Positions 20,287 through 56,403 of a stretch of 64,000 nt of DNA are shown here, in pieces. The position numbers and the translations under genes are program-made. The DNA comes from an uncultured Prochlorococcus sp. (GTDB lineage Bacteria > Cyanobacteriota > Cyanobacteriia > PCC-6307 > Cyanobiaceae). The notes below the pieces were generated by a model that had not been told where the DNA came from, made no database searches, and saw only the letters and a program-made list of their open reading frames with translations. The stretch is from assembly GCA_902620895.1 (NCBI GenBank), contig CACNJU010000006.1:1-64000 (forward strand). Direction: 5' to 3'. The number at the start of each line of letters is the position of its first letter. Position 1 is the first letter of the stretch.

Positions 20287-20313
20287 CTTGTCATTTGGTT
20301 ATCTTTATTTGAA

Positions 20314-20372
20314 CGGAGGGGGTGGGATTCGAACCCACGGTACCCTTGCAGATACGCTAGTTTTCAAGACTA
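20314..20372 (-). repeat. partial tRNA-Ser(UGA) 3'-half duplication (att-like)
   Basis: 59 bp identical to 21331-21389 except 2 mismatches; identity ends just past the anticodon loop. Confidence 0.9.
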
Positions 20373-20420
20373 TAAGATATTAAGTGATAGCAGTTGATTA
20401 GATAGCATCTAAGGAACAAA

Positions 20421-20445
20421 TATGACCGAAATATACCCGTTTTTT
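20421..20445 (+). repeat. left copy of TATGACCGAAATATnnCCGTTTTT
   Basis: TATGACCGAAATATACCCGTTTTTT; matches 21197-21220 with 2 mismatches. Confidence 0.7.
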
Positions 20446-20506
20446 GAAGAGATTAATTTAATAAATATCAACAGGATTTTGCAAGTAGTTAGCGTTTCAT
20501 TTAATT

Positions 20507-21103
20507 TTAGATGTTATCTGTTGAAGACTCGTTATATTCAGACACACATTCATTTATATTTAAAAACTCATAATTCAAAGATATGTATCCCTCTTCACTA
20601 CTAGTTGCGATTGCGTTAACTGATATGTTTTTAATATTATTTTGAGGAAGATTAGAGCCAATTTCTTTATTCCAAAAAGCTGTAAGGTATCTTTCTTCTT
20701 TTAATAATCCCATCATCCAATATTTAGCATCATTCCAAATACTGTCTCTTTTAACAAAATCATATTTTTCATTGTCACCATATTTTTTTGTTAATGCTTT
20801 TTCAAAAAATTCATATTCGCTTTTGAGTTGATCTCCAAAGGAATTTGAATACATAATATCTGAATGGCTCAATATCCTACAAAGTCCTGACTTTGGGGTT
20901 ATTAATAAATCATATTTAGTTAATTTAGAGTTGCCTTTTGGAAGCTCTTCTGTCGTATACCAATAATTCCCATCATCTTTGAGAGAAACACCCTTATTAG
21001 ATATATCTTTCTTTGTCTCACCCATATTTAAACCAAATTGGCTTGATAATAGATATTGAGGAAAAATAAAAATAGAAATTATTATTGTTAGAAAAAACTT
21101 CAA
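20507..21103 (-). CDS. secreted hypothetical protein, cargo of tRNA-Ser element
   Basis: N-terminal signal peptide MKFFLTIIISIFIFPQYLLSS; FGLNMGETKKDI. Confidence 0.65.
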   Translation of the reverse strand: MKFFLTIIISIFIFPQYLLSSQFGLNMGETKKDISNKGVSLKDDGNYWYTTEELPKGNSKLTKYDLLITPKSGLCRILSHSDIMYSNSFGDQLKSEYEFFEKALTKKYGDNEKYDFVKRDSIWNDAKYWMMGLLKEERYLTAFWNKEIGSNLPQNNIKNISVNAIATSSEEGYISLNYEFLNINECVSEYNESSTDNI

Positions 21104-21168
21104 TTTAAAAAGAGCTAATTGCCCTTTATTGTAGATCGATTGTCAAAAATTTAAATACTCTATTCTGA

Positions 21169-21220
21169 TATGACCGCTTATGACCGTTTTAAATATTATG
21201 ACCGAAATATGACCGTTTTT
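21169..21220 (+). repeat. cluster of four ATGACCG repeats at right end of element
   Basis: ATGACCG at 21170, 21180, 21198, 21209. Confidence 0.75.
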
Positions 21221-21280
21221 GTTCTCCAATATACGGTAACAGAGGGGAATTCTAAGGAACTAATCTATTTTCAAGAAAAT

Positions 21281-21303
21281 AAAAAAAACTCCTAGAAGGA
21301 GTT
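21281..21303 (-). terminator. terminator of tRNA-Ser transcript (AACTCC-TAGAA-GGAGTT, then Ts on minus)
   Basis: Perfect 6-bp stem with A-tract on plus strand. Confidence 0.65.
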
Positions 21304-21331
21304 GTACTTTTAAAAGTCAGTCGTGGATTAC

Positions 21332-21417
21332 GGAGGGGGTGGGATTCGAACCCACGGTGCCCTTGCAGACACGCTAGTTTTCAAGACTAGAGCCTTAAAC
21401 CACTCGACCACCCCTCC
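21332..21417 (-). tRNA. tRNA-Ser(UGA)
   Basis: GGAGGGGTGGTCGAGTGGTTTAAGGCTCTAGTCTTGAAAACTAG...GGTTCGAATCCCACCCCCTCC; class II with variable arm, anticodon TGA. Confidence 0.97.
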
Positions 21418-21629
21418 AAAGGGTTCTTCAGTTTTATTGAACTTAAAAACTATAACATAAGAAATTAGTCACAGTCTATAAATTCAAAGATTTAAAAATT
21501 ATTTCAAGAAACTAGTTTGAGATAGGAATTTTTATTAATAATGATGAGTTAAATCGTTATAACAACCTCTTCTTAGTCAAATTTAGTCAACAAAATGAGT
21601 CCAAAAAATCTAGTCTGCTTCCAAAAAAA

Positions 21630-22014: not shown

Positions 22015-22110
22015 TTTTTTAGCTCCGGTTTCGCTTAAGTCCCCGTTCCATGGCTTAAGTCGATTTGCGGCTTGCTATACGCAAGTTGAACGCTTTGGTA
22101 GCGGTTGCTA
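22015..22110 (-). promoter_or_regulatory. GC-rich structured 5' leader of DUF4278-like gene with 10-codon uORF
   Basis: Hairpin CTTGC-GTATA-GCAAG, two GACTTAAGC repeats, uORF MERGLKRNRS (22019-22051) ending 4 nt before the CDS start. Confidence 0.5.
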
Positions 22111-46668: not shown

Positions 46669-46689
46669 AAAAATAAGTTAGAGTTAGAT

Positions 46690-46905
46690 TACTGGATCTT
46701 TGGTTAAGTTCTTCTTTATGTGCTCTGATCTGACTCTCTTTCGACATGAGGAGACTGTCGTGATGCGGTAGTAAACCGATCTTGTAATCGGAAACGAAAG
46801 CCCACTTTGAATCCTCTTCTGGCATTTCCAGGTCGATGCAGCAGAGAACTGACGGGGATCCGGTGTTACCTATCAAAATGCTTGCTAAAACAGGCTTTTG
46901 GTGGG
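46690..46905 (+). ncRNA. ssrS: probable 6S RNA, with terminator
   Basis: GC-richer non-coding stretch directly downstream of purK, the recalled location of cyanobacterial 6S RNA; ends in CAAAATGC...GCTTTTGG hairpin and T-rich tract. Confidence 0.65.
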
Positions 46906-55870: not shown

Positions 55871-56403
55871 AGGAATTGTACTTAGAATTATTCAAAAGAC
55901 AATCGAAATTTTAGTGATCCCAGAAATAAAACGTGGATAGTTTTTTCTTAAAAGAAGATAATATTTTATTTTACACATAGTAATTCAAATTTAATCAACA
56001 TATTGTGGAAAACCCTGTTGAAAAACGCTTAAAAAGTGGATAACTCTTCGGGAGCATTACCAAAACAAGCTTTTCTGGATAATTATTTAAGTATTAATAC
56101 TTCATCAAAAAAAATAAAATATAGTTTAAAAAGTATCAAAATCTATTGTTATAACTGTGGGATCATTACTTTTAAAAAAAGACAATATATTTATACCAGA
56201 AGCACATGTTGATAAAAAATTAAAAAAGATTTTTCTTCATCATGTATCAAATTGAAAATTAAAGTGAAGAAAAATTAATCTATACTTGAAATTTTTAATT
56301 TTTGTCTTATCTGATTAAAAATTGTTTAATTCGGTTTTCTCTATGGCAACACTCCCCAAACGCAAGATTAATCAAATAAGTTTGTATTAGTTAAATATTT
56401 AAA

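Follow-up and report, generated by a model that had tools for sequence, protein, structure and literature searches.

Cis-mobilizable elements (CIMEs) are placed among the decay products of ICEs and IMEs and can accrete in tandem at a tRNA or tmRNA gene (PMC5704250). Recombinase-less islands at ssrA in Dehalococcoides have been proposed to be CIMEs (PMC3146451). In Prochlorococcus, the tycheposons described by Hackl et al. (2023), taken here from the accounts in PMC10872708 and PMC10187409, attach to tRNA genes and carry cargo; the former gives them a tyrosine recombinase and a size of 4-200 kb (PMC10872708). Islander recognizes islands in tDNAs by a regenerated tRNA and a displaced fragment, with an anticodon-centred crossover as a recognized subsite, and rejects candidates without an integrase and those <2 kb (PMC4383910).

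Here we describe a 1,017-bp interval beside tRNA-Ser(UGA) in a 64-kb stretch of DNA (the window, meaning the whole of the stretch analysed) from an uncultured Prochlorococcus sp. We think it likely that this interval is a non-autonomous, one-gene, CIME-like integrative cassette that is mobilised, or was recently mobilised, in trans. Judged by its sequence, it resembles a CIME in having no integration or transfer genes while keeping both att sites, and the capacity for tandem accretion is a further likeness (PMC5704250). It differs in being ~1 kb long with one cargo gene, in carrying a full set of arm sites at both ends and in the many distinct arms found among such cassettes, and a search of 265 genomes identified no parental ICE or IME that shares its arms. 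It shares the lack of a recombinase with the Dehalococcoides ssrA islands (PMC3146451). With the islands recognized by Islander it shares the regenerated tRNA, the displaced fragment and a probable anticodon-centred crossover, and such cassettes fall outside that collection because of its integrase and 2-kb requirements (PMC4383910).

The first-pass annotation of this DNA had linked the interval to tycheposons. The tRNA attachment supports that link, as do the Prochlorococcus host, the cargo and the presence of recombinase-bearing elements at the same tRNA; the missing recombinase and the small size do not. As tycheposons are characterized in the accounts cited above, the interval is not one in the strict sense, since it lacks the hallmark deep-branching tyrosine recombinase and, at 1.0 kb (1,017 bp), lies below the reported range (4-200 kb; PMC10872708). 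The link is also loose because the elements with 426-429-aa recombinases at tRNA-Ser(UGA) have arms unlike those of the cassette and, where one is seen, a shorter tRNA footprint. Integron cassettes are likewise single-gene, recombinase-less units on which a tyrosine recombinase acts in trans. The interval differs from them in targeting a tRNA gene, in its arm-type direct repeats and in having no integron platform and no identified attC-type hairpin, and its tRNA footprint argues against reading it as an integron cassette.

Footprint at tRNA-Ser(UGA)

ARAGORN and Rfam identify a single intact tRNA-Ser(UGA) gene at this locus, at 21330-21418 on the minus strand, and a repeat search finds a second, partial copy:

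21330-21420, minus strand: intact tRNA-Ser(UGA), near attachment site (ARAGORN and Rfam)
20313-20372, minus strand: displaced 3' half of tRNA-Ser(UGA), far attachment site (97% identity to 21330-21389)

The repeated segments, 20313-20372 and 21330-21389, lie 1017 bp apart from start to start, in agreement with the first-pass annotation, which had reported a duplicated 3' half with 57/59 positions identical. It had also seen identity stop just past the anticodon loop. The repeat indeed ends after the anticodon stem-loop, and in the sister cassettes described below the tRNA identity likewise ends at TTTTCAAG. Strand exchange probably took place in the anticodon loop, at TTTTCAAG on the plus strand (20361-20368). 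The intact tRNA and the displaced fragment flank the insert in the correct orientation for an integrative element placed in a tDNA by a tyrosine recombinase, and the earlier recognition of a tyrosine-recombinase-type footprint is supported by this repeat geometry together with the empty sites and sister cassettes of relatives.

The tRNA copies differ at two positions, which pair with each other in the variable arm and have changed in a compensatory way (GTG..CAC versus GTA..TAC). Both alleles occur in intact tRNA-Ser genes of relatives among the loci fetched, and no unpaired combination was seen among those loci. Since the sole differences form a compensatory pair and both alleles are found in intact genes, the displaced half shows no decay. 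It is another working allele, which fits incoming DNA that brings its own 3' half; the 3' half of the intact tRNA-Ser would then have been supplied by the cassette. Elsewhere in the window, Rfam reports a Glutamine-II riboswitch (22034-22095, minus strand), a 6S RNA (46686-46870, plus strand) and Yfr17 (55900-56159, plus strand).

Cargo

The 1,017 bp between the displaced half and the intact tRNA hold one long ORF, with these features:

20480-20500, minus strand: gene-start remnant ATGAAACGC.. (reading MKR..), recurrent at the ends of cargo modules (sequence recurrence)
20507-21103, minus strand: cargo gene, 198 aa, predicted secreted, no known family (ORF list and profile searches)
21104-21147, minus strand: dispersed motif TTGACAATCGATCTACAATAAAGGGCAATTAGCTC upstream of the cargo, a recurrent start boundary of cargo modules (recurrence)
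21287-21303, minus strand: predicted intrinsic terminator of the tRNA, located within the cassette (conserved in sister cassettes)

ORF and profile searches bear out the first-pass annotation, which had found one secreted-protein ORF and no recombinase: there is no recombinase or integrase gene in the interval, and the remaining frames are small and spurious. The 198-aa protein has a signal peptide-like N terminus and no match in Pfam, NCBIfam, PHROGs or PDB sequences; viral sequences gave one weak match. Its structure model is weak (pLDDT 63), and a fold search with that model returned no significant match. The upstream motif TTGACAATCGATCTACAATAAAGGGCAATTAGCTC may be a promoter or leader. 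A GATCGAYTGTCAA motif with its downstream leader (window 21104-21147; L156, L157 and L158) precedes many cargo genes, many of them starting MKRLLLPLLAALALPTAVNA, and ATGAAACGCTTACTACT, the start of the reading frame behind the dispersed motif, recurs as a remnant at cargo ends.

Relatives of the cargo protein, 84-85% identical, occur in three other Prochlorococcus genomes. The AG-459-O09 (G152) relative is in the same type of cassette, that of AG-903-E23 (G048) immediately follows a 420-aa recombinase at tRNA-Gly(GCC), and that of AG-355-M18 lies behind a 5'-side integrase at tRNA-Ser. As relatives of the cargo are found in other element contexts, the ends and the cargo have separate histories; it looks as if cargo genes were exchanged through shared start sequences. 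The cargo of the G001 cassette resembles the 131-aa cargo of an element on contig C33 of the study genome.

Occupancy of the site in relatives

In G047, a near relative, the tRNA-Ser(UGA) site is cleanly empty: when the flanks of the study genome are joined, they align to it over 545 bp with 96.3% identity and a single gap position. Further empty sites are present in G003, G014 and G034. Recombinase-less cassettes of ~0.8-1.6 kb with a 3'-half footprint were found in G001, G039, G053, G055, G118, G152, G261 and others, with two in tandem in each of G118 and G261. These sister cassettes have the same anticodon-loop core, conserved ends and unrelated cargo. Thus, the empty sites and the elements with matching ends that the first-pass annotation had proposed to look for are both present in relatives.

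Nor do all relatives share the interval. Among the 52 genomes with a resolved 3' side, the study genome included, 24 are empty, 25 hold ≤4 kb without a recombinase, two hold >4 kb without a recombinase and one (G050) has a 429-aa recombinase, counts that are not population frequencies, because the genomes were chosen non-randomly, in part by likeness to the tRNA-Ser locus, and because recombinases were detected with six queries at E < 1e-4.

Some intervals have ends that do not match. In the first G118 cassette, G038 and G043, it is as if some units were fused or decaying, and mismatched ends look as if two cassettes had been fused by loss of the intervening tRNA fragment. Longer intervals in which the arm sequences differ between the two ends were also seen at L103:4171-5572, L057 and L062.

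Arm-type repeats

The first-pass annotation had not recorded the motif TATGACCG, of which the 64-kb window has five copies (0.38 expected), always within the interval and on one strand; these are five of the eight copies in the genome. Four copies lie on the tRNA side and one, with a degenerate copy, on the far side, at within-pair spacings of 10-11 bp:

20408-20421, plus strand: conserved box TCTAAGGAACAAAT, adjoining the far arm site (repeat search; found in sister cassettes)
20421-20439, plus strand: far arm-type pair TATGACCG-AAA-TATACCCG, with a degenerate second unit, at a distance of 48 bp from the core (repeats)
21169-21186, plus strand: tRNA-side arm-type pair 1, TATGACCG twice at 10-bp spacing (repeats, sister cassettes)
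21197-21215, plus strand: tRNA-side arm-type pair 2, TATGACCG twice at 11-bp spacing, with its start 133 bp from the tRNA 3' end (repeats)
21251-21264, plus strand: second copy of the conserved box, TCTAAGGAACTAAT, on the tRNA side (repeat search)

The second far unit, here TATACCCG, is degenerate in two sister cassettes as well. Arm-type sites of tyrosine integrases typically take the form of tandem direct repeats, roughly a helical turn apart and close to both ends, and by analogy we infer that the paired TATGACCG repeats are such sites.

Cassettes with the anticodon core place their arms at nearly fixed positions, with arm pairs starting 130-134 bp from the tRNA 3' end (146 bp in G055) and far pairs 45-52 bp from the core. 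The bases themselves vary, taking the forms TATGACC, GTTCACC, GTGAGCC, TGTAACC, TRTACCC and TGTGCC. Left and right arms agree within a cassette (similarity 62 versus 41 expected, p = 1e-5, permutation over 15 cassettes), also in a reduced set of seven that was intended to have one cassette per specificity and in which two still share TATGACC (31 versus 18 expected, p = 4e-4, permutation). Intervals whose ends disagree are mostly the longer or composite ones (G038, G043 and the first G118 cassette).

The arms are also more conserved than their surroundings. When the tRNA-side ends of five TATGACC cassettes are aligned, 30 of the 37 columns in the arms do not vary, compared to 67 of the 153 other columns (p = 3e-5). 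Alignments of these cassettes give 74-92% for the far ends and 51-86% for the tRNA-side ends; in their middles, similarity does not exceed that of shuffled sequence.

Across 265 genomes, paired TATGACCG occurs only in the study genome, G055, G118, G152 and G261, always at tRNA-Ser(UGA). A second arm pair, TTCACCGAAANTTCACC, occurs in six genomes, two of them (G218 and G284) outside the earlier set. In both, the pair is present twice, ~1 kb apart, around a recombinase-less cassette at tRNA-Ser(UGA) that has a displaced tRNA 3' half and different cargo. The TTCACCGAAANTTCACC search was therefore an out-of-sample test of the predicted cassette form, and it yielded two previously unseen cassettes. 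A search with the degenerate pattern CCGAAANNTNNNCCRYTTTT, which was mis-spaced, gave one chance-like match and was set aside.

A scan of viral contigs for GTTCACC arms found none. The phage contig IMGVR_UViG_3300031867_000305, whose host is unrelated to cyanobacteria, has five copies of CGGTCATA, including two 11-bp pairs (L102:1022-1224), and the cluster adjoins a gene for a 409-aa tyrosine integrase with an arm DNA-binding domain. When IMG/VR was searched for the 19-mer TATGACCGAAATATGACCG, this was the only contig found, with two copies inside the CGGTCATA cluster.

Recombinases at the same site

Two kinds of recombinase-bearing element occupy tRNA-Ser(UGA). On the 3' side, G027 and G050 have elements with 426-429-aa recombinases, whose arms are TGTTGGTGA and TGTTTGGGA and whose tRNA end repeat is short or absent. 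The other family, tyrosine integrases of ~390-405 aa, is found on the 5' side (L067, L105, L106-L135). Among members reported at E < 1e-20, nearly all lie ~230-320 bp (up to ~790 bp) from the 5' end of the intact tRNA-Ser(UGA), and their elements displace the 5' half of the tRNA. Some have 11-bp-spaced arms, N5-CCGAA, like the N5-CCGAAA-N5-CCG of the cassette.

The 265 genomes yielded no element that combines TATGACCG arms with a recombinase. Because of the similar arm format, the favoured candidate for the cognate enzyme would be a relative of the 390-405-aa integrases. By eye, the 5'-side elements of G050 and G261 have primase/helicase-like and terminase-like genes and in this resemble phage satellites. 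Gene-free 5'-side inserts of ~120 bp (L041, L049, L075 and L103:6582-6746) consist only of an arm pair and a displaced 5' half, and their arms resemble those of the integrase-bearing 5'-side elements. Apparently empty cassettes, these inserts are a direct example of enzyme-free units that share an address with an enzyme-bearing one.

Within the study genome, no relative of the 426-aa recombinase was found, and a PF00589 profile search returned only a 389-aa gene with core neighbours. We rejected this gene as the arm-binding enzyme, since a single conserved protein would not account for so many differing sets of matched arms. It would be incorrect to call the study genome recombinase-free: a divergent 429-aa tyrosine recombinase, below the PF00589 cut-off, lies at tRNA-Thr on contig C33 (L156:3189-4478 and about L156:4690-4760). 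That element has TTAGTGCG repeats, and its cargo is bounded by the same dispersed motifs.

Discussion

The footprint, the empty site, the sister cassettes, the end-matched repeats, the occurrence of the cargo elsewhere and the lack of an internal recombinase can each be read from the genomes compared; on these grounds we infer that the cassette is mobilised in trans and still competent. A tyrosine recombinase from elsewhere would join the attP of the cassette to the anticodon-loop core of tRNA-Ser(UGA). As the cassette would bring a tRNA 3' half and a terminator, the tRNA would stay intact and the old 3' half would end up displaced by 1 kb. The direct-repeat pairs, which keep a fixed distance to each end, would address the cassette to one particular recombinase, and cargo would be swapped independently of the ends.

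The first-pass annotation had offered two readings, a non-autonomous cargo unit mobilised in trans or a decay remnant. The sister cassettes and matched ends make us fairly confident in the former. The latter, in which a larger element has lost its recombinase and most genes and the ends are nonfunctional relics, seems unlikely. Recombinase-bearing elements of classical form do exist at tRNA-Ser(UGA) in G050 and G027, the same cargo directly follows a recombinase in AG-903-E23 and AG-355-M18, so that the cassette might have arisen from an element of this kind by loss of the recombinase gene, and fused cassettes with mismatched ends occur. Independent losses, however, would not give many ~1-kb cassettes with a common layout, fixed and matched arms and different cargo. 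A relic is also hard to reconcile with arm repeats that are preferentially conserved and matched at both ends, with a displaced tRNA half altered only by a compensatory pair, or with the failure to find a recombinase-bearing parent with TATGACCG arms in 265 genomes.

Exchange by RecA between tRNA copies, with the repeats serving regulator binding or replication, would make use of repeats of 59-61 bp, long enough to support homologous exchange, and would suit cargo that seems to have been swapped through shared start sequences. It leaves both the exact core and the matching repeats at the two ends unexplained, and integrase-bearing elements share the repeat format at the same site; we consider it very improbable. 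A partial tRNA copy alone could also come from an ordinary duplication in an ancestor, in which case the gene enclosed by the copies would be a core gene. The empty sites contradict this, as do cargo genes that vary between occupants of the site and recur at other places, and we give it almost no credence.

Returning to the trans-mobilised cassette, we tentatively propose a wider picture, to which we assign somewhat less than an even chance. tRNA-Ser(UGA) may host a pool of one- to two-gene recombinase-less cassettes with at least six arm "addresses" and, for each address, a separate recombinase that acts in trans. Insertion would take place to either side of an anticodon core that is nearly palindromic, cargo would be swapped between addresses and the enzyme-free form would be the usual occupant.

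If the cassette reading is correct, the matched arm repeats would be a readable address that predicts which cassettes answer to the same recombinase, and the set of cassettes would offer a natural panel in which to follow the divergence of arm-site specificity. In the most abundant phototroph, much of the small-scale turnover of genes next to tRNAs would then occur in units that escape island finders through their small size and paucity of enzymes.
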